Shown here: positions 5,576-58,045 of the stretch, piece after piece
How positions within the stretch are numbered: the first letter of the stretch is position 1
How the letters are laid out: every line of letters begins with the position of its first letter
Source: Physcomitrium patens
Lineage: Eukaryota > Streptophyta > Bryopsida > Funariales > Funariaceae
Direction: 5' to 3'
DNA: 64,000 nucleotides
Assembly: GCF_000002425.4 (NCBI RefSeq)
Contig: NC_037270.1
Coordinates: forward strand, 5,561,450-5,625,449
The notes under the pieces: model-generated
Databases searched by the model: none
The model's input: the letters and a program-made list of their open reading frames with translations, nothing else
Told to the model about the DNA's origin: nothing
Made by a program: the position numbers and the translations under genes

Positions 5576-7900
5576 ATAACAGTACAGAAACGTCACAGAT
5601 TTGCATGTTTTAACAAAGAAAACAAATATAAAAGCAAAAAAAAGAAAGGGACACCTAGTAGATTCAAGCTGAATTCATATCTTGCCCTAATGTATAATGT
5701 ATAAAATTATGCACGTTTTCAGGAAGCTGTTTCTTTCATTAAAATATATGCTCATTGCTTTTATAATTTAAATGTTCTCCCTAGAAAAAATTACGAATTA
5801 TATCAATATATAAACTACTAATTTTCAAATCTTACCATTTCTTACAATGAGGATTATTTCTAAAAATGCAAGCTTCCTACTTTTAACATGTAATTTTTAA
5901 AAGGCGGTATGATAATAAATATCATAAAATAAGAAACATAATATTATATGAATAGTTATATAAATTTTTTTTAAAAAAAATACCAAAGTAATCATTAAAA
6001 ATCGTGTAATGATACTTAATGAAAAAGTACAGAAGGAGAAACCTTAGTTCCAATATTTAATATTTTTTTCAGATTATTTTTCTTTTATGCATGAAAATAA
6101 AATATAAAACTTGTTTTTAAAACATTTAGTGAATTAATGAAGTGAAGTTTGTTGAGTCATATATTATCATGCATTTGGTGTATAATACATTGTATATTTT
6201 GAACATTTGGATTTAATACAACATTTTTTGGTAGTCCATGATTTACTTATTTTAATTAATTTTTATGAGTAATTATTTTGTATTAAATCTCAATTAAAAT
6301 TCATGTGACTAATTTAATATACTAATTCATAATTTGTACATTAAAAAAATTAAGAAATCTTGTTATATTTTTTAAAACTAAAATGCCATAGACTTGATAA
6401 AATCCACAATGGTTCCAAAATTTTAGCTTAATTTTATAAGTAGATTTTGTTTTATTAGCATTTTACACTAGTTTTAATAAACATACTATTGTATTATTTG
6501 TTTCCAAAAAAAATTATTTATTTTATTATAAATAATTTACTTATTTATTTTTTTATAAAAAAAATTAAAAATAAGATGGTTTTTTAAGCATAAAGTTTCT
6601 TAATTTTTTTTAAGTACATAAATATAATTTTTTAAAGAAAAAATATCATATATATCCCTGAAATATGTTGAAATATAAAAAATACCAATATATTCTTGAT
6701 AATATCAAATCTATATTTCAACCTCATAAGGTATTATAATTATTCTTTTTTAAACGCAATTAGGGCCCAACTTTCAAGTTGTAGAGAAACTGGTGGGGCT
6801 TTTTTAATACTTTTTTTTATACAATCAACCCTTTTAGTTTCTGCACTTATAGTGCTCCTGAAACGGGATTAGACTATTTCAAAAATCTAAGATCTTTCCA
6901 ATCCACAGCAACATAAATTCTATCACAATTTAAGACTAAGCAGACTACAACAAAAAAAAATAGAAGAAAACTAAACAAGAAGATGCAAATTCAAACTTTA
7001 CTAAAAGAAAGGGTCCAAAGTCATATTTGACCAGATGCCCAAATGGCCATGGCCAATCTTATTTATACTTTGTTTGACTATCTTGGAACTTTTTTAAATA
7101 TTTCTAATAATAGACTCTATCTAGATAACTATCATATTTTTTTTTTAGAATATTTTATAGTAGTTCCTACTTAGATAATCATCCTAAGCTCTTTCTAAAA
7201 TGATCCATGGTGGATCCTACATAGCCTACTAACCTAGCTTCAATTCTAAAAACTTCTATAAACTTCTCAAACATAGTTCCAACTATCTATTCCTATGTAT
7301 CAATAATACAAATATCTTATCTATACTCCATTATAGCCCCTAATTGAAATGCAAAATTTCACATTAAGGTTTTAAGATATCTCAATTGCTTTCTACTACA
7401 CTGCACAAAAATACTTAGTACAAAGAACAACATGAAGGGTATTTTCAATCCTTTGTCATCTTAAACATAACATATAGTCATTTTTTATTTGTATTTTTTA
7501 AAGAGTACATAGTGCCAAATTATCTTTATTAATTGACCTAAATCAAATTTATATCTATTATCCAAAGTCATTGTAATTTAATGTTATTAGCTATATGGGC
7601 TTGCAATTAATTCACCAAGACAACATTGATTCTAAAGCCAACATATTGAATTCTCTAGTTACTTTTTATAGTTGTGGTAATGGTTGTGGCCCTCTTAAAT
7701 GCATCACAATTCTTTAATCTGTTGTATGGCATAATTTTCTATCTCGAAATACACCGGGTACCTAGCTGAAGAGAATTTAGCTTTAACTTATTGGACAAGT
7801 TCCAATAAATGATGTATTCTTATTTTAAATACTAAAGAAATATAATAATATCTAAAGATTTTCTATTAATCAAATCTTTTTATATTCAAAATGCTTTATA
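5576..7900. other. AT-rich stretch without recognisable genes
   Basis: Dense short stops in all frames and many A/T homopolymers. No family motif or tandem array was seen. Part of 6,740-7,900 has the mixed base use of old LTR sequence, but no second copy was found in the window. Confidence 0.5.
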
Positions 7901-9230
7901 TATAAGGCTTTCTAAAACATCTAGAAATATCCGAACATCCTTGGTTACACCAAATCATAACTAACTTTTTGTTAGTAAGTTTGATTTTCTATAAGCTCAA
8001 AGAAAATCCATAATCTTCTTATAAATATCTATCTTTATATCATAATTTTGCAATAGCTCCATATCTCCATCTTTAAGATATATATAAAGTCTTGGCTCCC
8101 AAAAATCCCTATGCTTTACAAAAGATGTACAAATTGCAACAAAACTCCTTCAAAACTTTTTTTTCTCGCAAAAGATTTTTACTTCTTTAATTTTAAAAAT
8201 TCATATTTCTTCATGCAACTGTTAGATTTTTTTTCAAATTTCTAGATAATATAGAATTTATCTTTAAGCTTTGTCATTAAAAAAATGAACTATAATTCTA
8301 TTATAAATCATTTGACATCTTAGAAACTCTAGCAAGTGCTTTAAATCCTAATTTATAAGTACTTAAATACTATTTTTTCCATATCTCAAAAATCCAAACT
8401 CCAAATACTACAAAATTTATATATAAAGTTTATTAACATAATAATATATATTCTTAAAAAAATTTAGCCAAAATCTTGTCAAATCGCTTAAGTTATGGCT
8501 CAATACACAACCACTAATAAATCAAGTCACTTACTACCCTTAGATTGTAAGCACTGACTTTAACTTTCTATAAATCCTTCATTTTAGCTTAAAATTCATC
8601 AAGTAGTATGTAAAAAGTATAGCCAAAAAGTGCTTTCTTCAATCCCATTTGTCAATCCTTCATTGCATTCTCAAAACATGTGATAGGTTCAAAAGAGTTA
8701 CGATAGTTACAAAACCCATATCTTAACTTTGAGTGCCTACAACTTTTTCTTAATAATTCCAAATCATCCAAAATTTTTACCAAAACCATGGCCAAAAACC
8801 TAAATTCTTTGATCCTAATCTCTTAAGTTCAAATGACTTCGAAAAAATAACCCTAATTCCTAATAAGGCCTTAGAGAGCCTCCTTAAAGTCTATTGGGCA
8901 TGCCTTTTGGCCAATAGCAATAGAAATTTTTATCATCCATCCCCATTCATCCATATGGATGCCCTAACTATTCTTTTTTGCTATCAAAATTTCTTTTCAA
9001 TATTTTTTCTAGTACGATTTATATAATAATTGCCCTAAACTCCAAATAAAAGAAACAAAATAAGATTTCAAGAACCACGAATATCTAATAAAGTTGACTC
9101 TAAATATATAAAACTATTATCAATATAAAATCAACTTCAATAATAGTCTTTTCAAATAACCATTTCAAAGTAGTAATCTAATCATATTTTGTGACTAACT
9201 AAAATTTAATAATGTGGTTCTTATCACATT
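7900..9230 (-). repeat. S0: decayed solo LTR of family S (minus orientation)
   Basis: The reverse complement of S2 (44,725-45,977) aligns here in order over several blocks. Examples are the stretch around CTTAAGTTATGGCTC and CACTTACTACCCTTAGATTG near 8,490-8,545, the block CATATCTCAAAAATCCAAAC near 8,380, and the block around TCTATTGGGCATGCC near 8,890. Divergence is much greater than between S1 and S2, so this copy is older. Ends are approximate because the termini have decayed. No internal retroelement sequence lies on either side, so it is a solo LTR or a fragment. Confidence 0.6.
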
Positions 9231-9847
9231 ATATAATAAATTATATATTAAATATTTATGTGCATTATTTTCATATAATAGCCAAATCACAAGACAATCA
9301 TAGTCAAGCTCTTTATGTCATCACTCTATGCTCCAACCATTGCAATATTAGAGTATGGGACCACCTCAACATGTAAGAAACAACAAAATTTGGAGGTGGC
9401 CAAGTTATAGTGAAATGTGTTGTTGTAGTTGGCAATGTAATCATTAGTATGTACTTAGACCACAAAATTAGAATATGGTATAGATTGAAGAACTAACCTG
9501 AAGAGCATTGCTTTATCTTTCATTATCCATTCATTTCTCGTGAATTCATTCATTTGTTGAAAATGATTGTGCCATAGTTTATAAGGCATAAGGTAGTATA
9601 TTATTCTAAAAAGTACTAAAGAAGGCTTGTTAATTTCTTTGTAGTATGTAGATTTTGGCTTAGTTACATTTAAAAAAGAATTGTTGTGATACCTTATTAA
9701 ATTGAAGAATAGATTTGATATTATCACAAAAATTAAGAATAGATTTATTATTATTAAGAATATATGGATATTTTTTATATTTCAACATATTTTAGATTGT
9801 CACATAATATTACATTAGATTCCAAATCCTATCAAATATATATAATT
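9231..9847. other. Non-coding stretch
   Basis: A 90-residue minus-strand open frame (9,455-9,727) is present but has no family resemblance and an AT-driven composition. I see nothing else here. Confidence 0.5.
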
Positions 9848-10150
9848 TAGTTTAATTAATAATTTTTTATCCATGGATAATTTTTTTGTTAGTTGACTTA
9901 TTTATGTCAATTAGAATTTCATTACTTAAGTGGAAAAAAATCCTTGACTTAACATACTTGTCAAGCCATGTCTTGTGAGTGATTTTAAGAGTCAGAGAAC
10001 TTGTTGTAAGAGTTTGTTTAGCTATGGTATTTTAGCCATTTTAGTAAAGCTTTTGGATTTTTTTTATTTTTATACTTGCATTCTTGGATTTTTCTTTGTG
10101 GTATGAAAGATAGCTTGACTTAGTTTGGTGTAGATTTCTAATCTTTCACT
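9848..10150 (+). repeat. X1: dispersed repeat, inverted copy at 57.7-58.0 kb
   Basis: About 300 bp that aligns end to end with the reverse complement of 57,745-58,045. Shared blocks include the region around ATCCATGGATAA, the TTGACTTATTTATGTCAATT block, and the block ending GTGTAGATTTCTAATC. It is probably LTR or MITE sequence, but no termini or target duplications were recognised. Confidence 0.65.
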
Positions 10151-11602
10151 TGATAAGAATCTCTCCTCCTCTTTAATTTGTAATATAGCAAGTTAGAATG
10201 AAGTAGATAAAAAAAATAAAATAAAAAATAAAAAAAACTTATAATTTGGATTTGTTTTGTTACTAGGTTTCGGTCATCATTATGCTAGGCGTCAGAACAA
10301 GCTAGGTTGTATTGCTGCACTATTATATATGATCATATTCATCATTGTAGGTATTTTACAATATAGGGTATTGAATTAAGACTATGATCAGATAAAGTGC
10401 ATCAAGGCGGAATTGTAATGCTGCATAAGATAAGAACTCTGATCACAACATTAGATAATTATAAGTCATGGTTAAGGAATAAAAAATTGTAAGGTGAAGC
10501 TACATTGCCGAGTTGTAATAAAGAGCTATTGGCTCACCTTATAAGACGATACAGAAACATTATCATATAGGATTTTGGTTATGAAAGTTTTGTGATACAA
10601 GAAAATTTTGGTGCGACACCTTTTAATGCAAAGTGCTTAGTACAAGGCACTTATACTTATAAAAATCAATGTCCTATAGTAGCTAACAACAACCAATGGT
10701 AGAACACAATGGTAAAGGAGTGTCTTCTTGTGGCTTAATGCGTCAAGCTACAGTCTTAGGTGAGTTTAATTACAAGCCCCCCAAATATAGAACCCATGGT
10801 GACATAAGTTTGTAATGACTAAAGTGTGTGGTCACAAGATCCATAGTGAAAAGCTTTCTACAATCAAAGAGTCTATTGTGTCAAAAACACCATGATCATA
10901 GGCCTCATTGCATAATTATAAGGTATTAAAAAAAAAAAAAAAAAAAAAAAACTGATTATTTAGATTTCTTAAGTATCAAATTTAGAAACTCACTCTAAGT
11001 GCATATGTAGTCTAAATCTGATTATTTTTGAGTCAATTTTATATAAAAGAGGCCAAAAAATTCATTGGCATACTCAATATTTAGAGTGGAAGTCATTTAT
11101 AGCATTGAAGTGGTATTACTAAATGCCAATTGATTTCTAAATGAGTTTTTGATTTTTTTTTCACTTTTCTATATTTCATTTTATTGTAATTATCTTTTAT
11201 TGTCATAAGTTTTGTAATTTGTGACCATCAACTATAAGCGAGTGCTGATTAATCTAATTCACTTTTGATTTTTGCTTATATATTGTTGGAGATAAGAATT
11301 TAGTATAGATTTTTAGATTTTATATTTGATACCTTCTTCTAATTGTAGATATTATTTTTGGAGATTTTAAATATAAATAAAGGAAAAACATCTAAGATCT
11401 CCCACTTTTAATAAGTGGTATACCTTTGAGCTCTTATTACAACATTTAGAGCATGAGATGCTCCAAATCTATAGAAAATAGAATGAAGAATATGTACTTG
11501 AACTCTGTGAAGTAGAACATTATTGAAAGGCATATTTAGAACTTATTATAGCTTTTAAGGAAGATGCTATGTCAAGCTTTATATCTACGTTGTCGTATTA
11601 CA
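10151..11602. other. Unassigned non-coding stretch
   Basis: No coding frame with family resemblance. It contains a long poly-A run at 10,928-10,951. Base composition between 10,260 and 10,900 is less AT-rich and may be old transposon sequence, but no second copy was identified. Confidence 0.45.
10928..10951 (+). repeat. Poly-A tract
   Basis: About 24 consecutive A residues. It might mark the 3' end of a retroposed sequence, but no coding or SINE body was recognised upstream. Confidence 0.9.
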
Positions 11603-12550
11603 TGTTGTCATATTTGGAAATGTACTAGGCATATGGCTGTAGAAGGTGGGATTGTATTTTACAAATATTCAAGAATCCTAATATGTTTTATTCTTATAAG
11701 AAAAATATAATTTGAATTTTAATTCAAAAGTATTTGAATCTAATACAAAGTACTCAAAAAAAAATCTTCTTAGTAATTTCAATTCTATATAAATTCCAAT
11801 TGCCTTATTACTTTTTTAGTTAGGTAATTCTGAATTTTTTTTGCAATCCTTAACTCTAATCAATAAGCTTTAGTGAGCTGTAGCTCATAATCTAATTATC
11901 TAATTAAAGCAAAATTTTGCATAAAAATGCCACTATAAGTCTTTTATATGCTCAAAAAAATTCACTCTAATTCAACTTATAGATCATGTAAAAACGAACA
12001 AAAAACCACATTGATATTACTTGGCTGCCAACTTGAAAGTTGATATAAATGTTCGAGTAGTGATTTCTCCTTCTTCAACTATTAACTTCAACTCAAAATT
12101 GGTATGTAGCTTAATCTTTAAGTCTTCTAATACTATGTCAAATTTCATCTTGATCCAACTAGTAGATCTTTAAATATCATAGAAACTCTATTTAATTTCA
12201 AACTGCCAACTTTTGATATTGTCTTATATCAAAACCTAGATATCTCTCAAGTGTACTATTATATTTTTACAAATTTTTACACACTTTTAGTTCATCTAAT
12301 TGACCATACACTTTCAAATTTTCAACCATAGATGTGAAACCAATTTCATGAACCAGACGAGACTGCTAGCTCTAAATATATTGCAAATATTCCAAGTTGC
12401 TAATACAAACCTTGACTTTAAATAATAATTGCCAAGTCTAAACAAATCTTACAAAAACAAGTCTTACGTTCTTAGAACAAGCTCTAAGCTAGCTCTTGAA
12501 CCCTAATCTCTGATCTTCAAATGCAATCCTATTTTGTCTTAGGTTATCAT
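11603..12550 (-). repeat. Z0: family Z LTR-like repeat, first part (minus)
   Basis: The left end (TGTTGTCATATTTGG, then a GGCTGTAGAAGGTGGGA block) matches the left end of Z2 at 26,643. The right side, near ATTTTGTCTTAGG, matches the ATTTTGTGCCTTAGGATCTG block of Z2 at 40,617. Z1 is inserted into it at 12,551. The remainder continues as a short piece at 14,097-14,119 and probably after element D from 18,993. Orientation follows Z2. Confidence 0.5.
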
Positions 12551-14096
12551 TGTCATATTTTAATATGACCATATGGTGAAAGGTAATAATATGGATCTTA
12601 TTATAAAAGAGCCAAGTTAAAAGTTAAAGTAGAAAAAAATAGATAAAAGATAGAAAGGTAATAAATTTTTTAATAGTAATGCTATCTTTTTTAAAAAGTA
12701 ACTTCTATTTACTTTGTAGGACCATAAATAAGGTAAAATAAGATAGATTAGAAAAATAAAAGATACATGCATATATAAGAGGGAGTTAGCAATGGGTTTT
12801 AGTAAAAATTACTTAAAAAAACTAGATATTAATATCTAAAAATGGCCAAATATAAACTTGGATTGAAAATATATCCTAAGGCACAAAATCAAGTCCCAAT
12901 GATAATTCAGGGGTTCTTTTATTGATCAAAGATAAATGTTAGAGAGAAGACTTGATAGGATTTGTATAAGAACTGATTTTGAGGGATTTGAATAGGTAAT
13001 GACTTTGTAAAAGCTTTGCAAAGTTGATATTATTTTTGGTGACTTTGATTTTTGGAAAATAAAATAGAGTTGACGTTTTGGATGATTTCAAGAGTTTGGT
13101 AATAGATCTATAGATAATTTTTTTTAGATTTGTGGTTGTAGTTGTGTAAGATGTGTGCTGTGAATTTAGATTTGATCAAATAGCTAGATTGAAAGGCATG
13201 AAGGTTTTTATGGATTATGGTCTCGGACTTCAAGTTTTTAAGGACTAGTGAGAGTTTTTTAGGTATTTGTCAATGTGCCAATTAGATTGAGGCAATATTT
13301 ATCATAGAGGTGGTCAATTTGATTCCTAAAAAGTGTGTAAAATTTAAAATCAAAATAACAATTCAATTATGAGTAATTAGCTCTAGAAGATTGGCATTAA
13401 GATCAGAGAATGAGGCTCGCCAATATTTGAGTACATATTTGAGACTATTGTCTATTTGGTAATTTTGTTCATCTTCAATTTTTTTGTACTTATAGTTAAC
13501 TTAATTAGTGAAGAATATAAAAAATTTGATTTGAAATCAATAGTTCAAATATTAGTTATTGAATTTCAAAATCTATTTTAAAGTTTTTAGAATTTTATTT
13601 GAGATTTAATATTTGATTAAGATTTGATTTAGGATTAAGATTAGGATTTGATTTGATTTATGATTTGATTTGAATTAGGATGTGATTTGAATTAGAATTT
13701 AATTGGAATTAGAATTTGGTTAGGATTAGAATTTGATTAGGATTAGGATTTGGTTAGAATTAGGATTTGATTAGGATTTAGGATTTGGTCTAAGATTTGA
13801 TTAAGGTTCTTGATTTTTATTTTTAGTATTTAAAGATATATTTTTTATATTTTTAGGATTAATTTTTTATATATGTATTTCTTTAAGGTTAATTTATGAT
13901 TTTTTCATGTTTCTTTTTCAATATCTTTAAGATTTCTTTTAAATTTGATTAAAGCTTGATTAATATTTTTAAGGTTTAGTTAGAATTTATTTAAAATTCT
14001 ATTAGAATTTTTAAGATCTTGTTTTTGGAATTTCTTTTTACCTTTCATAGCCATGTGTCTGATGCATTTTCAACCAAGACTTCACATAATATGACA
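12551..14096 (+). repeat. Z1: family Z LTR-like repeat
   Basis: This repeat has matching inverted 8-bp termini, TGTCATAT at the left and ATATGACA at the right, as in LTRs. Its reverse complement aligns with the two halves of Z2 (26,643-27,276 and 39,728-40,962). One shared block runs around ACTTTGTAGGACCATAAATA; others are the AAGGCACAAAATCAAG block and a long array of GGATTTGATT-like units. The flanks are TCAT on the left and TTGT on the right, possible 4-bp duplicates that differ by two transitions. No coding sequence is present. It is probably a solo LTR. Confidence 0.6.
13560..13860 (+). repeat. Degenerate telomere-like tandem array inside Z1
   Basis: Tandem units of the form GGATTTGATTA and GGATTAGAATTTGATTA. 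On the other strand they read AATCCTAAATC, close to the plant telomere unit CCCTAAA but degenerate. The same array occurs in Z2, so it is part of the repeat family rather than a chromosome end. Confidence 0.7.
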
Positions 14097-14119
14097 TTGT
14101 TTTAGTAGCTAGAGATTAT

Positions 14120-14462
14120 TGAAGAAACACAATAAGCAAGACATAAGTAAGTAGAAATTAGCAAGATTAGACATAAGAAAATTCTGGAATGAGATACCTC
14201 TCACTTACAACATCATTTATTTATAGGTAGAATTTACATCTATTGTGGCTCAACTTCATTTTCATTCATCTTTACTTCATCCAACTGAATCTTAGATTTC
14301 ATTTAACCTAGCTGCCACTCCAAATCCTAGCCACCACTTAATCTAGATGCCACTACAAATCCTAGCCACCACCTTGATAACTTTCCTATTATCTTTTGTT
14401 GTCTTGGCATTAGCAACTTACGTTAAGTAATATCTTTTATTTGTCCAACATTTATTTTATCA
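14120..14462 (-). repeat. Element D 3' LTR
   Basis: Aligns over its whole length with 18,647-18,992. Both share GAGATACCTCTCACTT and TAATATCTTTTATTTGTCCA. The two copies differ at many scattered positions, which shows age. Confidence 0.9.
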
Positions 14463-14475
14463 CTCCCACTTTACT
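14463..14475 (-). other. Element D polypurine tract
   Basis: The minus strand reads AGTAAAGTGGGAG directly before the 3' LTR start TGATAAAAT. This is the expected primer for plus-strand DNA synthesis. Confidence 0.85.
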
Positions 14476-14499
14476 ATTAGTTAAAGGTTTTTAATCCTA

Positions 14500-15900
14500 A
14501 TGCCTTTGTCAATTTGTAATGTCTATCTTTCTTTAATGCTTTTGTAAGCAAATCAACAAGCACATCTTTTGTTGTACAATACTTCATGTCAATCACTCCT
14601 ATTTCAATCTTTTCTCATATGAAGTGATGTTGAATGTCAATGTGTTTTGTCCTTGAATGATGCTTTGCCTTATCTTTGATTGTCACACTTCATTGGAATT
14701 GCTTCCAATTGCATAAGTCCAATGTCTTCTAAAAATTGTCTTAGTCATATTGCCTCCATTGCACCATGACTTGTTGTCATGTACTCTGCATCTATTGTTG
14801 ATCTTGCAATTATTGATTGTCTCTTATAATTCCATAAAATTGCTTGTACTCCAATAAAGAACACATATTCTTTTATTGACCTTCTATCATTTGCATCTCC
14901 AACCCAATCCGCATTACAATAACTATGTAATGCAATATTATCACCTCCAAGGCACAATTTGATCCTTGTGCCAACCATTGTATATATAAGTGAGCCTACT
15001 ACTGCCTTATATAGAACATCTTTTATTTCATCTTTAACTTTAGTAAACTCCTCATCCGTGAACTTCATCAACTTCATATTGGCCTCTAATGGTGTTCCAA
15101 TAGGCTTATATTCTTTTATATTGAATCATTTCAATATTTCTTTAATATACTTCTTTTGGCTCAACATAATGATCTTCTTAGCTCGATCTCTCACAAATTC
15201 CACTTCTAAGCAATAGTGGAGCTCTCTCAAATCACTCATCTCAAATTCTTTTACTAGCTTTATCTTCAATCAATCTATCTTTTTCAAGGTGTTGGTCAAG
15301 ATGATTAAATCATCAACATTGAGAATAACAATCAGTAAGAAGACTTTTGATTGCATCACATACATGGAATGATCAACATTGCTTCTCACAAATCTCTCAT
15401 TCACAAAGAATGTATCGATGTATTGGTATCATGTCTTTGATGATTGCTTGAGCCCATACAAGGATTTCTTCAATTTACAAAGAAAGTATTGCTTACCTTC
15501 TTCAACAAATCCTTAAAGTTGATCCATTTAGATGTCTTCTTTCAACTCTCCATTCAAAAAATTTGTCTTCACATCCATTTAATGTATTTCCAAGTCCATT
15601 GCTGCTTCAATTCTTACAATGATTCTAATAGTGGTGAATTTGGCTATAAAAAAAATGTCTCATTAAAATCAACACCAACAACTTATAAATAGCTTTTGAC
15701 AAGCAATCTTATCTTATACTTCACAACTTTATCCATTGCATCCTTCTTGGTTCTTAATATCCACTTACAATCAATTGAAGCTCAATTTGGTGGAAGTTGA
15801 GTCAATTTCCATGTTCCATTGTCCATGAGTGATTGATATTCTTCTTCCATGGCTTTCTTCTACTTCAAAGCATCCGTGGACTTCATTGCATTACACAAAC
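14500..15900 (-). pseudogene. Element D reverse transcriptase and RNase H
   Basis: The RT is read from about 15,900 downward: an N-terminal part with KYKIRLLVKSYL, a fingers region with MDVKTNFLNGELKEDI, and LKKSLYGLKQS. The active-site segment is VILNVDDLIIL, where the usual copia YVDD has become NVDD. The clearest open stretch, 14,745-15,077, is RNase H. It shows SYCNADWVGD, where copia elements normally have a Cys-Asp-Ala-Asp core, so one acidic residue is lost. It also keeps RSTIDAEYM with its Glu. The C-terminus can be followed to about 14,500. Several stops and shifts make it non-functional. Confidence 0.88.
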
Positions 15901-16036
15901 TCAATGGATCAATAAGAAGTGAAACATTCGCATGTTCTTCACTTATTTGAAGAAAGATGTGATTCTTCTATCATTTGCTACATTGTTTTCTATCTCTCAA
16001 AGGATATCTCTTTTCATTTGAAGAAGAATCAACTTG

Positions 16037-17340
16037 TTATATTCTATGGTCTCCTCCAACCTTCTTTTCTTTTGTAGATAGTCTTTTTTCATTCAAAGGT
16101 TGACAATCCTCATCACCATCATTATTAACATCTTCATACTCTTCATTGCTGGTCTTAGCATTTTTAAAGGCCTTCTTTCCTACCTTCTTTACTTTTTCAT
16201 CTTCATTTCTACCTTTACAACTATAGTTGTCTTCATCTTCTTCTTTCTTTGTTGGATTTGAAGATGTTTCCATAAACACACTATTACTCCTACTTGAACA
16301 CATCTCTAAGTGCTCACAAACACTCTTGTATTCCAAAAATTTAACATCACGACTTTTGATGATCTTTTTGGTCTCCACACACATGAGCTTATAAGCCTTT
16401 GTACCTTCGCAACATCCAATAAACACACATTTTGTACCTTTTGCATCAAATTTTGATCTCATACAATCTGGTGTCTTTACATATGCTATGCATCCAAAAG
16501 TCTTCATGTGTAAAATAGAAGGTTTTTTTCCACTCCAAGCTTCTTCGGGAGTTTTTGATGTAAATATACTTATAAGGCACCTATTTCTTGTACTCACTGC
16601 TATTACCATGGCTTCCACCTAATATTCAAATCTAAGGTTTTCTGCATGTAGCATACTCCTTGCCATCTCCACAATGGTACGATTTGCTCTTTCAGCAACT
16701 CTATTTTATTCTGGAGTATAAAGAGTGGAGGTTTGTCTTGCAATACCATGCATCTTCAAAAAATCATTGAATTACTTTGACATATATTCACCTCCATTAT
16801 CCACATGCAATATCTTAATTTTACACTAACATTGCTTCTCCAGAAGCACCTTAAACTCCTTAAATCTTTTGAAACATTGATTCTTTACTTTCAGGATGAA
16901 AATCCACATATTCCTTGAAAAATCATCAATGAATGTGACAAAGTATCTTGCACCTCCTATTGATGGCATCTTTATACGTCTACAAACATTAAAATGGACT
17001 ATCTCCAATAACTTGGTTGTACGTATTGTAACTTCACTTGAAAATATAGTCCTTTGTTATTTACCTTGAATACAACCTTCACAAGCAAGTGTCATAGCAT
17101 TATGGCTTATATGACCAAGATCTAAGCCACTTACTATGGATTGGAGCTCTTTCATGCTCTTGGCATTTAAATGACCAAGGCGTCAATGCCAAATGCCAAA
17201 CTTATTTTGATCTTTAGGAAATTTAAGAAATGCTGCCACTTCAACTCTATTTATCTTCTTACACTTGATGAAGTAGAGGTTGCCATCTCTAAAGTCCTTT
17301 GCAACATCATCTCCTTCGAATGTCTTCACAAAACACCCAT
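16037..17340 (-). pseudogene. Element D integrase
   Basis: Integrase inserts the DNA copy into the genome. The catalytic core begins near 17,008 with MEIVHFNVCRR and GGARYFVTFIDDFSRNMWIF. The first catalytic Asp, normally in a His-Ser-Asp-Val context, reads Asn here. The C-terminal region at 16,037-16,618 shows the copia landmarks TPEEAWSGKKPSILHMKTFG, KGTKCVFIGC and KAYKLM, followed by an acidic linker toward RT. Stops separate the core from the C-terminal part. Confidence 0.88.
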
Positions 17341-17350
17341 TCTTATCAAA

Positions 17351-17620
17351 TTATACTTTACAACCATGTGAAACAAGTTTATACACAAAGAGGAGGTTTT
17401 TCTTTATCTTTGGCACATATAAGACGTCATTCAATTTGATCCTCATAGTTTGGCCTTTTACAACAATCTCTACTATAATAGAGCCCATTCCAATAGCTTG
17501 TACTAAACCATTATCTTCGATAAGTATATTTGTTGTTGAAATTTCTTTATAAGTATCAAATAAATACTTGTGTGGAGTCATGTGCTTGGTGGCACCCAAA
17601 TCAACAATCTACTTGGAAAT
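17351..17620 (-). pseudogene. Element D aspartic protease
   Basis: Retropepsin-type protease that would cleave the polyprotein. The active site reads IVDLGATKHMTPH, where copia proteases carry Asp-Ser-Gly-Ala; here Ser is Leu, and a stop lies just upstream. Downstream residues LNDVLYVPKIKKNLLFVYKL match the copia signature around the flap. It sits between the zinc knuckle and integrase as expected. Confidence 0.88.
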
Positions 17621-18434
17621 AACAGCCATGGAAGTACCTTCACTTGCCATGAATGCATAATCATCACTTTCATATTCATCACGAGTATTGTTTGAACTTT
17701 TTCTATCTCTTTTCTTAACCTTGTAGCAATTCTTAGCAAAATGACCTGATTTTCCACAAATGAAGCAAGTTCTTGCATTGCTATGTTGAATAAAATAACT
17801 CCCCTTGCCTTGTCTTGAAAAGAAAGCCGAATCTTCACTTTGAGGCTCTTTTTCTTTCTTCTTGGTCACTTTATGAGTAAGTCTTGTCATCACATAATTC
17901 ATTGTAAGTTCTTTTAGTTTGATGAACTCCAATGCCACAATGATGTAGTAATTGGACTCAGAAAGGTTTATAAACAAGGTAATGATAATATGAAGGCTTG
18001 TCAACAATTGCAAGTTGATTAGCAAGGACTTTTACCTTATTGATATGAGCCATGACGTCATCACCTTCTTCTATCTTATAAGTAAAGAATTTTCTCCTTA
18101 TGAAGATGATATTGGATAAATTCTTATTGTCATATACGTTGCAAAGGATCTTCCATGCTTTTTCTGGTCCTTTACAAGAGATGATGTGAAAAAAATTGGC
18201 TTCATTCAAATTGGTGGCAATCATGCCAAAAGCCTTCTTTTCACATCTTGTAAAGTCCTTCCTCTCTTTAGCATCAGCATGCATGCTTGGAGGCTCTTCA
18301 CTTTCATCTACAATATTTCAAAGATCCAAAGATACCAACAAAAGTTCCATTTTTACCTTCCAATAGTAGAAATTATCAACTTTAAACTTTTCAATCACTC
18401 TCAAACCTTCACCCTCATTAGAAGCTATATTTAA
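17609..18434 (-). pseudogene. Element D gag with zinc knuckle
   Basis: The N-terminal gag core (UBN2-like) reads from about 18,434: FKVDNFYYWKVKMELLL, then AFGMIATNLNEANFFHI and AWKILCNVYDNKNLSNIIF (17,958-18,284). A single CCHC zinc knuckle, CFICGKSGHFAKNC, follows near 17,725-17,770 and is intact in all four metal ligands. Frame changes separate the core from the knuckle. Gag would form the virus-like particle and bind the RNA. Confidence 0.88.
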
Positions 18435-18630
18435 AAATAAGTCTATCAAAAAATATCAAGAAAAGGAGTCTCTATGTGCTTAAAATCACCAAAATAATTT
18501 TGTACTAGCAAAATCTCAGAATGCCCTCTTGTGAACAAATGAGTGTTTCTTCACTCCAAACACTCCCAACTCAACTTTCAACAACCAGAAAATAACTTCA
18601 ACTTACTTGAGAAGCACAATTAAGCGTATA

Positions 18631-18643
18631 TGGGCCCATAACC
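18631..18643 (-). other. Element D primer binding site (initiator tRNA-Met anticodon arm)
   Basis: The plus strand reads TGGGCCCATAACC three bases from the 5' LTR. This is identical to the anticodon stem-loop segment of plant initiator tRNA-Met (GGGCCCAUAACCC), so the element RNA could pair with an internal tRNA region rather than its 3' end. Half-tRNA priming of this kind is known from copia of Drosophila. Confidence 0.8.
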
Positions 18644-18646
18644 TAT

Positions 18647-18992
18647 TGAAGAAATACAATAAACAAGACACAAATGAGTAAAAATCAGCAAGATTAGACA
18701 CCAGAGAAGTATGAAATGAGATACCTCTCACTTCCAACATCCTTTATTTAGAGGTAGAATTTACATCCATTGTGGCTCAACTTCATTTTCATTCATCTTT
18801 ATTTCATCCAATTGAATCTTAGATTTCACTTAACTTAGCTACTACTCCAAATCCTAGCTACTACTCAACTTAGTTGCCATTATAAATCCTAGCTACCATC
18901 TTGGTGACTATCCTATTATCTTTTGTTACCTTTTAACCATTAGCAACTCATGTTAAGTAATATCTTTTATTTGTCCAATATTTACATTATCA
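18647..18992 (-). repeat. Element D 5' LTR
   Basis: Partner of 14,120-14,462. On the minus strand it begins TGATAATGTAAATATTGG and ends TTTCTTCA next to the primer site. Confidence 0.9.
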
Positions 18993-19358
18993 AAGGTTTA
19001 ATTTTTGACCTTGTGTCACAAATAGTCAATCCTTGGATATCAAACTAATCTATCTTAAGAATTTTTTATCCCAACCCTACCTTCAACTTAATTGTAGTTT
19101 CAACCATGTTAATTACTTATTTCTTTTAACCTGATTTTATCAATTTATAGTCTTGTTAAAGTAGTAAAAGAGTCTCTACAACTTAGAAGGTAAAATTACT
19201 AATCAAACTAATTATTAAGACAAGAAAATAAATTAAGATGCTTTTATAAAAGTCACGCTTAAATATCTTAAATTATTATTGAATCAAGATAAATAGATAT
19301 TAATTAAAAATTTATTTTTGATTATATTTTTACCATATATTCATATTATATCACAACA
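18993..19358. other. Non-coding flank between element D and M gag
   Basis: Probably the remainder of repeat Z0 (the block around ATCTTAAGAATTTTTTATC resembles 40,880-40,905 in Z2) and the leader of element M. No LTR or primer site for M could be recognised. Confidence 0.35.
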
Positions 19359-20460
19359 ATGGTGAAGGAAGAAGATTCAATCTAAGAAGAAGTTGGCACA
19401 TCTTTAAAAGATACCAGAGAAAAATGAGTAGTTACTTTTGTAACTAATATTTCAACTACTTTGTCTTGTATGGCTCAAGCAATGAAGGCAATTTTATTTA
19501 TAATAGTATAGCCACCATCATTTGAACCTCTTCAAATATTTATTAGTACTTAAAATATAAGTATGGAGATTTTAGCGATAGTAAAATATAATGCATTCAA
19601 GACTTCCATCATAAAAATGAAGATATTTCATGTACCATATATATGCATTTGGCTTGATTTGCAATTAAGTCAAGAGGTATATTTTCTGAGAGCCAACTTG
19701 TTAAGATTTTCTTATCTAAAATTGATAAGAGACTCTTAGATTTAGCTGCATTAAGAATTATTTGCAACTATGACTTTAGAGCAAGGTTAGCTCAAGCATT
19801 TATTAAAGTTGAGAAATGCAATAAAATACTTTGTCAATATGATGTTATTAATATGGTAGCTTGGATGATGGATGTATTTAAATCTAAGAAGATGGCAACT
19901 ATTATAAGTGGCTTGATAGAAATTCAAAAAAACAAAGATTATGTATTATTAGGCATATAGAGAATTAGGTCACATCAAGACTAATTTTAATTTTTCTAAA
20001 AAAAATAAAAAAAATAAAAAAATAAAAAAATAAAAAAGCTTACACATAAAAGTCTAATCCAAAAGTTGAAATGGCTTAAATAGGAGATAAATCTAAGAAG
20101 AATTAATTGAAGTAGATTCATTGTGATAAATTTAATCACAATAAAGATAATTGCTTTATATTACATCTCTACAAAAAAATTGGTTTGAATAAAGAAAAGG
20201 CCTTAGAAGCTAAAATTCTTGAGTTAGAAAAGAGATTCAATAGTGTAGCTTCATTAAGCTAAGTCAATGAATTTCATGTGGCTTTTAGAAGTAGAACAAG
20301 TTCTTCTTCAAAAAAAATTATTTGTTTGGTGCATTGAAACAAATGGTGGTTGCAACTGCTACACATGTTCAAACAATAGTTAAGAATATGACACCTATTA
20401 TAAGTGAGGTATTAAAATCTTTGTTTGGTCATCCAAGCAATCATGGAGATCGTAGCTCTC
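19359..20460 (+). pseudogene. Element M gag-like region with degenerate zinc knuckle
   Basis: Starts at an ATG (MVKEEDSI, then a stop). After a frame change it reads SKIDKRLLDLAALRII, RARLAQAFIKVEKCNKIL and VINMVAWMMDVFKSKKMATI, a helical gag-like pattern. Near 20,120 it gives HCDKFNHNKDNCFILH, a zinc-knuckle-like motif with one ligand lost. It is followed by LEKRFNSVASLS and NEFHVAFRSRTSSSSK. Many stops. Assignment as gag rests on position ahead of the protease and on the knuckle. An A-rich (AAAAAAT)n run lies at 19,998-20,037. Confidence 0.5.
19998..20037 (+). repeat. (A5-7 T)n low-complexity run
   Basis: Several tandem A-rich units ending in T. It lies in the M gag region and probably grew after the element died. 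Confidence 0.85.
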
Positions 20461-20880
20461 ATAAATGATTCCTTTTATCTTTTGATCTTATAGATGTTAA
20501 TTTTATAGCAAAGCCTTCTATTTCAACTTCAATATAAGATAAAAATACTAGTGTTAAAAATACAATATATCCTTTGGCTTATAAAATATTGAATATACTT
20601 ATATTTTTTAGAATCAACTTATTGGCTTCAAAATTTAAATAACAATGATCTTTCAATTAATAAAAAAATATTAAAAGGCAAAGTATATATATTATTATTA
20701 GAAAGAACTCAAGTAGTAACAAAGCATCAAATATAAAAGGATTTAAGTAAGTTATAAGCAAAACTTGCAACTGAAGCTATTGCCATATTTGATAAAGGTC
20801 ACTTAAAAGCCACAAACATAAATCCTTCAAATGAAGTGCTATTAATTCTAAAGATAGCATATCTATTTGATATTATAGCT

Positions 20881-21340
20881 TAATATACTGAAGAATGTTA
20901 AAATTTATATCCAAGAGTTGTAAGATTAATTAATGACAATAATATGATGATTGTTAGCCATGCTAATGGAAATACCACTCGTGCTACACCTTTGCATATT
21001 ATGCTAGATTTTAGAACTCAACCAATTATGATTGATAAGCGACTTCTTTAAGAATTAAATTTCAATACTATAGACCTAGAATCTTGTCCTTTTATCATTG
21101 TCGCTTTAGTAAGGAGTACAAAACAAACTATTGGCTATATCAAGTAATCTTTGCAATTAATATTTTATATTAGATTTAGTCCACTTTATTCACATTCATC
21201 TCTAAAATATGTAGTGATTAGTACCACCAACTACAATATTTTAGTGGTTCAACAAGTCTTTTATTCATTTGATTTTGGCATAGATAATTGGATTGAAGAA
21301 GCATGGATTCGACCAAAATAGTCTACTGGTGATGAAAGGA
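20881..21340 (+). pseudogene. Element M retropepsin-like region
   Basis: Read in the frame that starts at 20,761, in which no frameshift occurs up to 22,383. It gives ATPLHIMLDFRTQPIMI, where retropepsins have a hydrophobic pair then Asp-Ser/Thr-Gly-Ala; here Gly is Arg and Ala is Thr, both explained by G-to-A changes. Further on, VVISTTNYNILVVQQVFYS resembles the second conserved segment (Asn-Tyr-Asp-Ile-Leu-Leu-Gly type) of gypsy proteases. Then comes WIEEAWIRP, which leads into the methyltransferase domain. Stops are TAA, TAG or TGA in positions that look like former Gln, Trp or Arg codons. Confidence 0.65.
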
Positions 21341-21639
21341 AAGAATTCATTTGAATTACATTTATAACTATTACTATGATTATGTCAGCAAAAATTTTAT
21401 TTGATTATAATGTATTGGTATTTTATTTACCTTGTAGAATGGTCCTATTAGAAGAAAAATTAGCCTTTATGTTTCATTCTGTAGGACCAACTAATCTACC
21501 ATCTTTAAAAATTTATACCAAATATAAGAAGGATTTATCTCATCTTTAAAAAACTTATGTAGGACTTTTTTGCCCATGTGATGAGATTTTATCTTTATTG
21601 GATATATTGAAGATACCAAAATCTTCTTTTTTATCTATT

Positions 21640-22390
21640 TTTATCCAACCTATTCATTGGAATCTAAAAAATGAAGATATTATTTTTATTGAGCTTTTTA
21701 CAAGCATTGATATAAGTTTGGTAGCAGTATTGAAGGTTGGGCTTATTGTTTGACATTACATTCACATGGATACTAGAATTATACCTAATCAATCAATCGG
21801 ACATCATCTCCAAAGATTTTTGACTATGTATCTTAAATAATTATAACTTCTTGCCATTCTTAATTATTTTAGCAAACTTTGTCATAATGTCACCTTTATT
21901 AGTGATGAAGATTTCAAGAGATTAGGCCACATAGACTTATTGATTGATAGATGGCCTTATCAAAGTCATTCACATACTTGAACAAATTATAGGTTAGATG
22001 ATCTTCAATCCAATTTATTTATAGACTTAATGCATTTCATACAATGATAGTTTATGCATCAAACTATATTATTTGGATACAATTTTGAAAATGTACCACC
22101 ATCGAGTGATATTTGAACATAAATGTTGAAGAATTATGAATATATCAACTAATTCTTTGGACTTTCAACCCTTGTAGATGTGGTAGCTTTTGGCTCCTAT
22201 GTCCATTGATTTCATTTAATTTGAACCAATCTGACATTATTTCACATACTTACAAAAATAATTTTTAGAGTTAAATGATCTTTTGGATACTATATTGATG
22301 ATATCTTAGATAATAATTAGATTTCTTTGATTTTCACTAAGGCTAATGAACCTCCTCTTGCCTTATTTAATAAAATGGTGTGAGCTCTTA
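21640..22390 (+). pseudogene. Element M cytosine-C5 DNA methyltransferase domain (decayed)
   Basis: Such enzymes move a methyl group from S-adenosylmethionine to carbon 5 of cytosine in DNA. The frame shows the ordered motifs of the family. Motif I is at about 21,685: IFIELFTSIDISLVAVLKVG, with the Phe-x-Gly-x-Gly glycines changed to Ser and Asp. YIHMDT follows at motif II. Motif IV is at 21,928-21,966: HIDLLIDRWPYQSHSH, where the catalytic Pro-Cys-Gln reads Pro-Tyr-Gln, a TGT to TAT change. Motif VI is FENVPP at 22,084, with the Glu-Asn-Val triad intact. A motif VIII-like segment, GSYVH-stop-FHLI-stop-TNL, begins at 22,192. The C-terminal motifs IX and X were not found; the unassigned block after 22,400 may have displaced them. 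About twenty in-frame stops but no frameshift from 20,761 to 22,383. It is dead, but the family assignment is well supported by motif order and spacing. Confidence 0.78.
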
Positions 22391-22399
22391 ATTATGCTC

Positions 22400-24840
22400 T
22401 AAAATTTAAATTTTTATTATTTCTTTATTTTATGATAATTAAACATATTAGATTAAGATTTACATAATTAGAATTTAGTTTTATAAAAAATTTAGGATTA
22501 CAACCTTTGATGGTATAAATCATAGCCTAATTTCTTAAATTATTCTAATTAGAACCAAAGTGATAAGAATTAGAAAACTAGAATTGTAACTTACTTAGTT
22601 GTAATAATTTAGAGGTTGTTAGGTATGGTATTTCCATCTTTGGTACAACCTCTATGAGGCAAATCCATAGGCTTTTAGTCAATCCTCATAGTAGTGAGTC
22701 AAAATTATAATTTCCTAAAAATTCTAGTGAAGTTTAGTAGTGATAGTTTTGAGATTTCTTCTAAATTCAACAAATTCAAGTGGTATAGTAGTTCTTTTAA
22801 TTAATGGAAGCCTTTTTAATGCAATGGTGGCACCAAATTCACCTCATGAGTGAAGAAAATAAGATCAGCACCCTCTCCTTCAAAATACAAGTAGAGCAAT
22901 AAAATTCTCATTTTGAAGAATTTTACAAGAATTGCTAAGATCCTTGTAGGTAAAAACTTTCATAAAAATTACACTTGAATATGGATTGAGGCATGTGAGT
23001 AATTGATCTTAGCATACAAAAGTGTTTTGAACACAATGGTGAAGTTAGATTTACCAAAAAGTTCTTTTTTGACCACTTACAAGAGCCATCAGCCTTGGTA
23101 ATGAAATTGGGTCTTGGATGAATGAAGGCCATAAATCTACATTAGGGATCTTAGAGATCAAGGGTGGAGATGTGGCCGCCCTTCCTTAATCCACCACTCA
23201 ATTGTATGAGAGTGGCTTAGTTTTCCAAGCCCTCTCTCTCTGCTCTTTGGTGAAGCTATGCCAAATTTTGGCCCTAAATCCTAATCTTAATTTTGTTTTT
23301 GATTTTTAATCTCATTGAGAACTTTTGATTGTGTATGCATTGGATCTGGAGTAGTGAATGATGGTCATTGGGTTTTAAGACATAGGTCATTGTAATAGAT
23401 AGCTCCCTCGGCCTTCCAAATACCCCAAGGATTCAAGAGCCTTGGATTTCCCTCAATTAGGCATTAATTTTTTTGAATTTCAATATGAAATATTTTTTGG
23501 TTGTAGCTTTTGGTATTAGCTTTCCAACAAAGAATGGATTTCTTAATTTGGAATAAGGGGGAAATTTTGGTAGAATTTTGAGTGCGTGGGGGTCGGCTGC
23601 CTTGGCAGTTTAGAACATCCACTTTTGAAAAGGCATTTCTCAGTGTTAATTAATTTGATTATTGTGAAATTTTGAAATTTTGTGAATCTTTAATCTGGTC
23701 TTCTAATGGCTTAAATTTCACTGAATTTAAGGATTAATTGAATTTTTGGTTAATTTTCAAATGGAAGGAGGTTTCCTATCATGGTAGTCTTGGTCACTCA
23801 ACTTTGAAGGAGCATTTCTCATGGCAAAGATATTAGATTGAATTTAAATTTATTGGAACAGGAGCGCCTTTAAGTTAACTTTGAAACAAACTAAAAATAA
23901 TTCAATTTGGAATTAATTACATTTCTTGGAAAATTTTGGAGTAGAAAGGATTTGTTGCCCTCAATTCTTGGGCATTATCAATGTACCTTCGCTTTTATCT
24001 CTTTTTCGTCCCACTTTTACTTTTATTTTACAATAATTCGTAACTTTCATATTTCAACTTTTAGATTTTAATTTTTCTATTTTAACCTTTAATCTTTTCT
24101 ATTTTACTTTTAACTTTTACTTTTGATTTTGACTTTTGACTTTTAACTTTTACTTTTAATTCAACCTTTAAGATTTTTTTTACATTTACTATGGATTAAT
24201 GGTAATAATTTGATTGATTAATTTTACCTTCAGTTATTTAAGAAATAATATTTTATAAGTTTCAACTAATTAATTATACTTTTGTAATTATATAAAAATT
24301 AGTAATTAAGGACTATATAAATAATCTTGAACAAACCATTGAGACTTAAGTGGAGATCATGCAAATAGCCTTGAAGACCATTGTAATTTTATTAAATCTT
24401 TTTTTATTAATATTGTTAATCATTGCTTAGAAGACTTAAAATTAATTGAATTACTAATACTAAGTTTTAAATCAACTTAGCAATTACATAATTGAGAGTT
24501 CTTCCATTCTACCTCTTGATCTTATTGTGTGGCATCAATTTCATTGAGTGGTAAAATTTGGGCTCATAGATAGAGGCACCTTGTAACACATTTCTTACAT
24601 TTGTGACATTTTTAGCATTCTTTTGCATTTTGAGTATGTGGACTTGATGTGATTTGGAATATTAATTCATAAGCGTGTGAAGAATCTAATGCCAATGAAA
24701 AATAGCATTTCATGGATTTTTTAATTGAACCATAATTGAAAGACAATGTTGTTTTTTCTTAGACTAAGCTCTAGACCTCAATACTTTAATATGGATTTTT
24801 GGCATATATCTTATTATTTAAATATATTATTATGACCATG
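22400..24840. other. Unassigned block interrupting element M
   Basis: About 2.4 kb without recognised coding sequence between the methyltransferase part and the next M coding piece. A minus-strand open frame at 22,935-23,132 has no family resemblance. Mixed base use and GC-richer patches (about 23,150-23,650) suggest an old insertion, perhaps a solo LTR or a non-autonomous element. No termini, target duplication or second copy was identified. Confidence 0.4.
24000..24180 (+). repeat. Degenerate pyrimidine-rich tandem array (TTTTAACTTTTGAC-like)
   Basis: Repeating short units such as ACTTTTAACTTTTACTTTTG and GACTTTTGACTTTTAACT. A simple-sequence array inside the unassigned block. Confidence 0.8.
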
Positions 24841-24856
24841 CTAGTATTCAAAAATC

Positions 24857-25181
24857 AGAGAACAATGATCAAGAAATAATGGATGCTAAATTTAATAAGG
24901 TTGAAGAATTTAAGTTATTTCTTTGCTTACAGAGGCATGTAATTAATGAGCTATAAGCTCAATATGTCTTTGCGGTTTTTATTGAATACTTTGAAAAAAT
25001 AAATACTCAAGAGATTCTTTCACAAGATTTATTATTAAAAGACACTTCATGTTCTACCAACTTTTTTAATTCATAAAAAGATCATGGTGATGAAGTCCTT
25101 CATTTGGTTAGAAGAAAAGATGGTAATGGCATAGAAATTATTTTTTCAACAAATTAACAATTAAAGACCGTGCCAACATAT
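24857..25181 (+). pseudogene. Element M coding piece of unknown function
   Basis: A plus-strand frame with few stops (MDAKFNKVEEFKLFLCLQRH, FAVFIEYFEKINTQEI, DEVLHLVRRKDGNGIEIIF) runs up to the 5' LTR of chromovirus A. It lies where a spacer between the methyltransferase and RT would be. I do not recognise the domain. Its in-frame stops look like former Gln codons. It ends at the CATAT copy of the target duplication of A. Confidence 0.5.
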
Positions 25182-25342
25182 TGTCATGGATATATATAGG
25201 TACTCTAGTAAATACCTATATGATTACATAGAAGTAGATAAAAATAGATAAAAGTAGGTAAATTTCATACAATCTTCTAGAAGAGCTTTTTAAAAGCTTT
25301 ATAGATGTTACTTTGACTTTACATGTCCTTGTAATCAATTGA
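25182..25342 (+). repeat. Element A 5' LTR, first piece
   Basis: Matches the start of the 3' LTR at 55,916 (TGTCATGGA, then a GTACTCTA block, the AATTTCATA block and TTTGACTTTACAT). It ends at the TTGA copy of the target site of S1. Confidence 0.82.
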
Positions 25343-26879: not shown

Positions 26880-27276
26880 TCTCAATTCAATCTTAATTTA
26901 ATCGTAGTTAAAATCCTATTAGACTTCATTCAAATTTTAGGCCAAAAACTAACTAAATCTTAAATCCTAAATAAATTCAAATAAAACTCTAAATCCTAAA
27001 TCAAATCCTAATTAAATTCTAAATCCTAAATCAAATTCTAACCAACTTAGAACCAAATCCTAAATCCTAAACCAAATTCTAATCCTAAATCAAACCCTAA
27101 TCAAACTCTAAATTCTTAATCAAATCTTAATCAAATCTTAATCCTAAATCAAATCCTAACCAAATCTTAAATCCTAAACCAAATTCTAATCAAATCCTAA
27201 CCCTAAATCAAACCCTAATCAAATCCTAAATCCTAAACCAAATCCTAATTCTAAATCAAGCCCTAACCAAATTCTC
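26880..27276 (+). repeat. Degenerate telomere-like array in Z2, left part
   Basis: Tandem AAATCCTAAACC and AACCCTAATC-type units, variants of the plant telomere unit CCCTAAA. It continues beyond element C at 39,728-39,930, which shows that C inserted inside the array. Confidence 0.8.
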
Positions 27277-27631
27277 ATGAATTTAGAATATTAACTGGAA
27301 ATTTAAATAAGAAGCTCAAGAAGAATTGACAAGAAGTAGATTAATCAAATGAGTACATGAACAACACTAGAGAGGTGAGCTAGAGCTCCAAGAGGTGTGT
27401 TGTCAAGACTGAGGATCCCTTCAGTCTCGGCTCCTATATATACTACAAGCTAGGAAGCTTCTCAAATAGCTTCTACAAACTAGAAAGCTTCTCAAGCAAC
27501 TTCTACGAATTAGAAAGCTTCTCAAGCAACTTCCACGAGCTTAAAAACTTCTCAAGTAGCTTCTATAAACTACAAAGCTTCTCTAAAACCTTCTAGAATC
27601 TTCTATAACTTCTTAGTGTATGTCCTCGACA
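27277..27631 (-). repeat. Element C 3' LTR
   Basis: Aligns with 39,317-39,727 (shared AGAAGCTCAAGAAGAATTGA, ACTAGAGAGGTGAGCTAGAG and the 30-bp repeats). On the minus strand it begins TGTCGAGGACATACAC. It carries five 30-bp repeats where the other LTR carries six, and it lacks the outermost part of the 5' LTR partner. Confidence 0.88.
27432..27603 (-). promoter_or_regulatory. Element C LTR promoter: TATA box plus heat-shock-element-like repeats
   Basis: On the minus strand the order is upstream TTC-GAA-TTC modules, tandem 30-bp repeats, then a TATA box. TTC at 27,591, GAA at 27,596 and TTC at 27,601 are spaced exactly as in a three-unit heat shock element. The 30-bp repeats (27,447-27,596) contain GAAGCTTC, a GAA-nn-TTC pair, in at least the first unit (27,454-27,461). 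TATATATAGG lies at about 27,432-27,444. The match to heat shock factor binding sites is exact in form; activity is inferred. Confidence 0.6.
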
Positions 27632-57730: not shown

Positions 57731-57744
57731 TACATGATAGAAAA

Positions 57745-58045
57745 AGATTAGAAATCTACACCAAACTAAATCAAGCTATCTCTGAAATCGTAAAGAAAGA
57801 ATCCAAGAATAAAAATGTGAAAATAAGAGAAATCCTAAAGCTTTACTAAAATGGCTAAAACACCATAGCCAAGCAAATCTTTACAACAAGTTTTCTCACT
57901 TTTAAAATCAATCACAAGATTTGACTTGAGAAGAATGTCAAGTCAAGAGTTTTTCTCTACTTAAGTAGTCAAATCCTAATTGACATGAATAAGTCAACTA
58001 ATGGAAAAACTATCCATGGATGAAAAACCACTAACTAAACTAAAC
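57745..58045 (-). repeat. X2: dispersed repeat, inverted copy of X1
   Basis: Reverse complement of 9,848-10,150, with the matching blocks in opposite order (AGATTAGAAATCTACACC to ATCCATGGATGAAAAACC). Confidence 0.65.

Follow-up and report, generated by a model that had tools for sequence, protein, structure and literature searches.

A DNMT3-type cytosine methyltransferase within a decayed Ty3/gypsy-like retroelement family of the moss Physcomitrium patens

Retroelements carrying a cytosine methyltransferase of their own have been reported in dinoflagellates and in a single charophyte alga, according to excerpts of a paper from 2018 (PMC5890265), and an excerpt of PMC6338049 states that land plants are without such elements. 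In this study, we analyzed a stretch of DNA of 64,000 nucleotides from the moss Physcomitrium patens (contig 18, positions 5,561,450 to 5,625,449; referred to as the window, with coordinates counted from its first letter). Its segment 20761–22390 had been predicted from the letters alone to encode a cytosine-C5 methyltransferase (MTase) domain inside a Ty3/gypsy-like polyprotein. With a probability of about 0.85 for identity and architecture together, we read this segment as the protease-MTase part of a dead, multiply interrupted Ty3/gypsy-like copy, belonging to a family with a DNMT3-type MTase between protease and reverse transcriptase (RT) and with split direct repeats. The type of element is already known, and the P. 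patens family is a new member of it in a land plant. The original prediction had assumed a vascular-plant-like host, which was right for a land plant and wrong in that mosses are not vascular plants.

Two described elements are closest to this family. KnitGypsy-Dnmt3 of Klebsormidium nitens, likened here by description only, has Gypsy-type domains and a non-rearranged DNMT3-type MTase in its polyprotein, and its repeats are likened in the excerpts of PMC5890265 to the DIRS type, i.e. A-coding-B-A-B, which is also the arrangement in the moss family. The same excerpts place its MTase in the Pol open reading frame (ORF); the MTase of the moss family lies between protease and RT. They also report purifying selection on the Klebsormidium copies (Ka/Ks < 0.2), whereas the moss family occupies about 140 or more places with no intact copy seen. 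SymbioDIRS-Dnmt3 of Symbiodinium, as far as described in these excerpts, likewise combines a DNMT3-type enzyme with A-coding-B-A-B repeats, but is a DIRS-class element with a tyrosine recombinase, for which an independent capture is reported, while the moss family has RNase H and a DDE integrase of Ty3/gypsy type. A passage of PMC12344493, citing the 2018 work, names DNMT3 in retrotransposons of streptophytes and dinoflagellates and gives the long terminal repeat (LTR) type as Copia, not Gypsy. In the open-licence literature of PubMed Central we found no land-plant report of an MTase-carrying retroelement; a report elsewhere is possible.

The protease-methyltransferase frame and its relatives

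Translation of 20761–22390 gave one frame on the + strand with 21 stops in 543 codons, in which the C5 MTase motifs I, II, IV, VI and VIII are present in this order; the motif names, here and for the relatives below, are those which we take to apply. Against a profile of 16 environmental and related proteins carrying the MTase (A4), the frame scored 376.8 bits, with a single 367-bit stretch at 20935–22377 spanning both protease and MTase, whereas the best of 500 dinucleotide-preserving shuffles of the segment, each read in six frames, reached 7.3 bits. Chance motifs are thereby ruled out, and the predicted run of a single frame from a retropepsin-like region into C5 MTase motifs is borne out. 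By tblastn, residues 1–260 of the relative P0001 matched with 47% identity over 260 residues at 21598–22377 (E 6e-62), where the first part of the DNMT3-type MTase lies on the + strand with motifs I–VIII and the start of the target-recognition region. The protease part of P0048 matched with 49% identity over 182 residues at 20857–21402 (E 1e-49), marking a retropepsin-like protease remnant on the + strand, for which relatives match PF13650/PF13975.

The start and the motifs of the MTase stand as predicted. Its extent to 22390 does not, since the domain is incomplete there: a nested insertion of about 2.1 kb at 22432–24567 (edges to about 30 bases; a gap in the alignment of the window to the uninterrupted copies L039 and L040) splits it. 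The C-terminal part, with motifs IX–X and a C-terminal extension, follows after a frame change at 24568–25195 (+), as seen by blastn to L039/L040 and by tblastn with residues 276–458 of P0001, which matched at 24619–25154. The window copy is dead, as had been proposed, because the catalytic PCQ has become PYQ and the protease D-S/T-G has become D-F-R, in addition to the stops.

Relatives were found by way of a second profile (A2) of 28 dead copies from the P. patens genome, in which L009 is the window copy and from which L008, L029, L037 and L038 were left out. Among 7998 candidates scored, A2 detected P0001 and P0002 (458 and 455 amino acids; 51% identity to a dead copy) and one fragment. The profile of these three proteins, for which 7996 candidates were scored, yielded 172 proteins at E ≤ 1e-3, mostly unnamed environmental ones and many of them fragments; at least 28 of the 120 listed cover motifs I–VIII. 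PF00145 (curated cut-off 22 bits) matched P0001/P0002 with 49 bits and was found in all ten relatives scanned by Pfam. In six of these ten, the MTase is preceded within its ORF by a match to a retropepsin family, above the Pfam cut-off in P0013, P0015 and P0091 and below it in P0031, P0048 and P0053; PWWP or ADD domains were not called in the relatives scanned. In P0084, a truncated MTase is followed by an rve integrase. P0062, a Sphagnum troendelagicum protein encoded on a contig of 15.3 Mb, shows by eye a protease-like D-S-G stretch, which Pfam did not call. GWPCQGHS, ENVPP, ERERAMGF and GQAMDL are kept in most relatives read, with PYQ in P0028 and ECQ in P0091.

For the enzyme class, A4 was compared with the PDB. 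Of 48 matches, 29 were DNMT3 chains (1e-20 to 1e-17), the other 19 being DRM-type (4onj, 4onq, 7l4), HaeIII and HhaI at 6e-8 and weaker; no DNMT1 or CMT chain was matched at E ≤ 1e-3. In structural comparison, the fold agrees across the complete catalytic domain, with DNMT3A/DNMT3B as the best PDB matches among the 50 shown; no DRM or DNMT1 chain is among these 50, which carries no weight for the class. The MTase is of DNMT3 type, with a non-rearranged fold and motifs I to X in order. It resembles the catalytic domain of DNMT3A/DNMT3B in fold and motif order, and it differs in being about 25% identical in structural alignment and part of a retroelement polyprotein.

An enzyme of bacterial or viral origin instead of a eukaryotic DNMT3 is improbable. 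HhaI and HaeIII are also among the matches, similarity extends to 30 plasmid records (Enterococcus, Listeria, Streptococcus), and the tree described below is without bacterial rows. P0002 carries the label of a Candidatus Obscuribacterales assembly. We did not adopt a bacterial origin from this label: the contig of P0002 has 2,410 bases, and the five plasmid matches listed have 30% identity over 36% of the query. With 90% identity to P0001, P0002 probably stems from eukaryotic retroelement DNA that was mis-binned. A scan of genome contigs with the P0001 pattern, which covered contigs of at least 3,000 bases, found no relative.

A family of dead copies and its architecture

A scan of the P. patens genome (470 Mb in 101 contigs) with PF00145 gave 12 places above the cut-off. 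Four are copies of the window's element, namely L007 and L008 (28.2 and 27.8 bits) and places on C20 and C5; the remaining ones are six host loci (L001–L006), one place beside L006 and one on C4. By eye, L001 and L002 appear DRM-like, L003 and L004 DNMT3-like, L005 CMT-like with a chromodomain and L006 MET1-like. At E ≤ 1, PF00145 matched 11 of the 28 dead copies. In a search with the MTase stretch 21649–22341 as protein query, in which 150 of 338 candidates were scored, 151 matches were obtained, and the 150 listed fall on contigs C1–C27 and correspond to 139–141 separate places depending on the merging distance, which is a lower bound. All listed MTase matches contain in-frame stops except one 97-residue fragment.

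Among 24 aligned copies, pairwise identity over the MTase DNA is 71–81% (median 75%), the nearest neighbour of a copy being at most 81% identical, and summed over the 276 pairs there are 34509 transitions versus 12270 transversions. The observed/expected ratio of CpG is 0.04–0.25 in seven stretches of five copies and 0.41 in the whole window. This pattern is that of one old burst, after which methylated cytosines decayed; methylation may have caused the decay, and the family is probably extinct in the P. patens genome. In a tree, the dead moss copies nest with P0001. The origin of the enzyme is not settled by this tree, which contains two outgroup fragments only and no bacterial rows, leaves out P0062 and has moss rows that are long and compositionally odd.

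The neighbours of the MTase were read in 30 copies with 1.5 kb flanks (L009–L038, the best-scoring ones of the copy search). Upstream of the MTase, protease was matched in 26 of the 30 (all but L010, L022, L029 and L031); downstream of it, RT was matched in 22 (all but L009, L010, L021, L022, L025, L035, L036 and L038); since the RT query was taken from L012, the count without this copy is 21/29. In most copies these neighbours are on the MTase strand and at similar spacing. In longer loci, RVT_1 was found in L039 and RNase H in L040 and L041, and the integrase part of P0084 matched L040 at 7911–8249 (E 4e-30), L042 (2e-13) and L041 (5e-10). These matches support a predicted family order of gag, retropepsin, MTase, RT, RNase H and DDE integrase, in which the label gag is a weak one, assigned from a faint zinc-knuckle match (E 4e-4). 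In sister copies, the segment does adjoin protease and RT. The predicted capture of a C5 MTase in a Ty3/gypsy-like polyprotein agrees with these counts, with PF00145 in sister copies and with the fused environmental ORFs. Its placement between gag/protease and RT holds for the family; it does not hold for the window copy, as detailed below.

In L039, MTase and RT are in the same frame, stops included. The environmental relatives P0001, P0002 and P0004–P0008 have common C-termini after the MTase (PSTD/PSMD or ALSATK/ALAATK), which suggests that the frame truly ends before RT, with pol then forming an ORF of its own. The tyrosine recombinase family PF00589 had no match at E ≤ 1 in L039, L040 and L041, which are decayed copies. 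We did not adopt the DIRS class for the family, RNase H and integrase being gypsy-type.

The same domain order bears on whether the MTase stretch could derive from a host DNMT3 or DRM gene, as a pseudogene or retrocopy that lies in a retroelement by chance. Such host genes are at hand, as the genome has DRM-like and DNMT3-like loci (L001–L004, labelled by eye). Against a retrocopy stand the at least 139–141 places, the recurrence of protease and RT with, in most copies, a shared strand and similar spacing, the environmental ORFs with the same protease-MTase fusion, and scores of only 11–16 bits for the host loci with A4. The recurrent domain order rules out that a host gene copy is a neighbour by chance, and we consider this explanation extremely unlikely.

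Both ends of the element are marked by repeats, A of about 350 bases and B of about 100–120 bases, which were traced genome-wide at the best 40 of 489 candidate places for A and the best 40 of 218 for B. Where a listed MTase match was within 10 kb, A was 5′ of it at nine places and 3′ at five, and B was 3′ of it at all 14 places and 5′ at none; both repeats were on the MTase strand throughout. Of the 40 places in each repeat set, 26 are without a listed MTase match within this distance. For the 3′ ends, L043–L045 were picked for adjacent A and B, and L046–L054 for B located 3′ of the MTase. The order B-A-B, all direct, is present in 13 of 16 3′ ends (L041, L043–L053 and L069), including eight of the nine in the L046–L054 set; the exceptions are L054 and L042 with a single B and the window with an inverted A after B. 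All six 5′ ends (L039, L055–L058 and the window), picked from places where A precedes the MTase, have A without B. L055 and L069, 12.3 kb apart on contig 18, are apparently one copy with both ends. The ends fit split direct repeats with A at the 5′ end and B-A-B at the 3′ end (A-coding-B-A-B).

Several results weigh against our reading of segment, enzyme and family. With stops masked, Pfam called no family in the window segment even at E 10 and none in the flanks, so that the profile check proposed with the prediction failed for the segment itself and succeeded in the sister copies L007 and L008; a direct protein search with the segment had no match either. Recognition of the segment depends on sister copies and environmental relatives. 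A2, the profile of dead copies, matched no PDB chain at E ≤ 1. With A4, the DRM-like host locus L002 scored higher (15.8 bits) than the DNMT3-like ones (13.0 and 11.4 bits), all read as single exons, and hence the host exon scores do not favour DNMT3 over DRM. None of ten further predicted 5′ ends had repeat A, the sites being interrupted or truncated or the prediction mis-aimed. Among the 150 of 338 candidates scored, we saw no MTase copy that was both full-length and intact, and for this reason enzymatic activity cannot be read from the P. patens genome. Finally, the isolated Klebsormidium enzyme had no de novo activity in yeast, a result called inconclusive by its authors in the excerpts of PMC5890265.

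Anatomy of the window copy

The window copy extends from about 9.8 to 57.8 kb and is broken by three insertions of 7.8, 2.1 and 31 kb. Its pieces, all on the + strand and colinear with sister copies, are located at 9796–10261, 10411–11588, 19359–22431, 24568–25195 and 56456–57753. Terminal repeat A at the 5′ end covers 9796–10146 (+; 81% identity over 353 bases to repeat A of L041, 76% to L039 255–729), and the likeness to other 5′ ends extends to about 10261. The 5′ part of the element, leader or putative gag start, follows at 10411–11588 (+; blastn to L039 1134–2381 and L040 753–2372) and has an internal gap relative to sister copies. The first insertion, 11589–19358, is a gap in the colinear alignment to L039–L042 and contains an LTR pair. 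Its LTRs (14117–14462 and 18644–18992) are 86% identical and enclose, on the minus strand, a retroviral SH3-like domain and a CCHC zinc knuckle; from the SH3-like domain we presume the 14117–18992 element to be copia-like.

The putative gag region, with a zinc-knuckle-like stretch at 20146–20259, lies at 19359–20856 (+) and was assigned by nucleotide match to L039–L042 and by a weak tblastn match with the P0048 N-terminus (E 4e-4). Protease, MTase and the 2.1 kb insertion follow as described above. Between the end of the MTase piece and the next piece of the element are 31 kb of insertions (25196–56455), for L040 5986 corresponds to window 25184 and L040 5979 to window 56456. An RT-RNase H remnant of the same copy is present at 56456–57635 (+; blastn to L040 5979–6438 and 6989–7781, the RNase H of L040 being at about 7003–7341). 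The window copy thus has its RT-RNase H remnant 31 kb beyond the MTase, and it is without the RT core (L040 6465–6809 deleted) and without the integrase part. Terminal repeat B at the 3′ end covers 57642–57753 (+; 81% to B1/B2 of L041), and an inverted repeat A is found after it at 57743–58047 (−; 83% over 306 bases), which is either a rearrangement of the window copy or a piece of another copy. At the edges of the nested insertions, no convincing target-site duplications were found.

Inside 25196–56455, direct repeat pairs begin at 27268/39332 (88%), 28574/34171 (93%), 40971/56125 (87%) and 43904/52526 (93%), and they look like LTRs of elements nested in one another. Minisatellite-like arrays with units of about 28–30 bp are located at 26928–27282, 44109–44370 and 52731–53020, the latter two adjoining a 93%-identical repeat pair. 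An RT stretch with an open frame at 36812–37195 (−; PF00078, 88.9 bits) is far less decayed than the MTase element. Matches of the P0084 integrase on the minus strand (47370–47023 and 35743–35402) were assigned to other elements.

Possible role of the methyltransferase and meaning of the family

A retroelement-borne de novo methyltransferase that methylates its own complementary DNA (cDNA) was proposed in 2018, and SymbioDIRS enzymes methylate CG in yeast, both according to the excerpts of PMC5890265. For the moss family, we tentatively infer the same role, including activity of the enzyme, cDNA as its substrate and a benefit to the element; it is a possible role, which we rank above RNA methylation and self-restraint. 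In live members, the enzyme would be made within a gag-protease-MTase polyprotein, from which the protease would free it inside the virus-like particle or the pre-integration complex. It would then methylate the element cDNA de novo, and the cDNA would reach the nucleus already bearing the host's mark. In P. patens, the family would have expanded in an old burst and been silenced, the methylated cytosines then decaying to T. The MTase may in this way mark or mask the element's own copies, as had been suggested with the prediction.

It is unlikely that the MTase was kept for RNA binding, RNA methylation or particle structure instead of DNA methylation. RNA methylation is raised for the DNMTs of retroelements of the long interspersed nuclear element (LINE) type in the excerpts of PMC5890265, where the Klebsormidium and LINE-type enzymes, again inconclusively, were without DNA methylation in yeast. 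On the other hand, most full-length relatives read keep PCQ, ENV and motifs IX–X, apart from the variants of P0028 and P0091 given above, and the fold match spans the entire catalytic domain; both observations are still compatible with an RNA substrate. Quite unlikely, too, is that the MTase helps the host or limits the element, self-methylation acting as a brake on copy number and leading to silencing and extinction. The copies read are dead, star-like and CpG-depleted, and slower retrotransposition is named as a possibility in the excerpts of PMC5890265; in a methylating genome, however, every silenced element should become poor in CpG, and the whole window is depleted, too.

Beyond methylation of own cDNA, we propose with considerable doubt an old streptophyte lineage common to charophyte algae and mosses, which would pair A-coding-B-A-B termini with a DNA methyltransferase. 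Split repeats would imply a circular or nuclear-exposed double-stranded cDNA despite the DDE integrase, and de novo methylation would pass it as host DNA; the pairing in dinoflagellate DIRS elements would then be a convergence by that replication route.

With the moss family and the Sphagnum relative on its 15 Mb contig, the printed absence of such elements from land plants at large is wrong. Age, spread and purpose of MTase captures become testable across bryophyte genomes, and in P. patens the decay of an apparently extinct family may record its own methylation.
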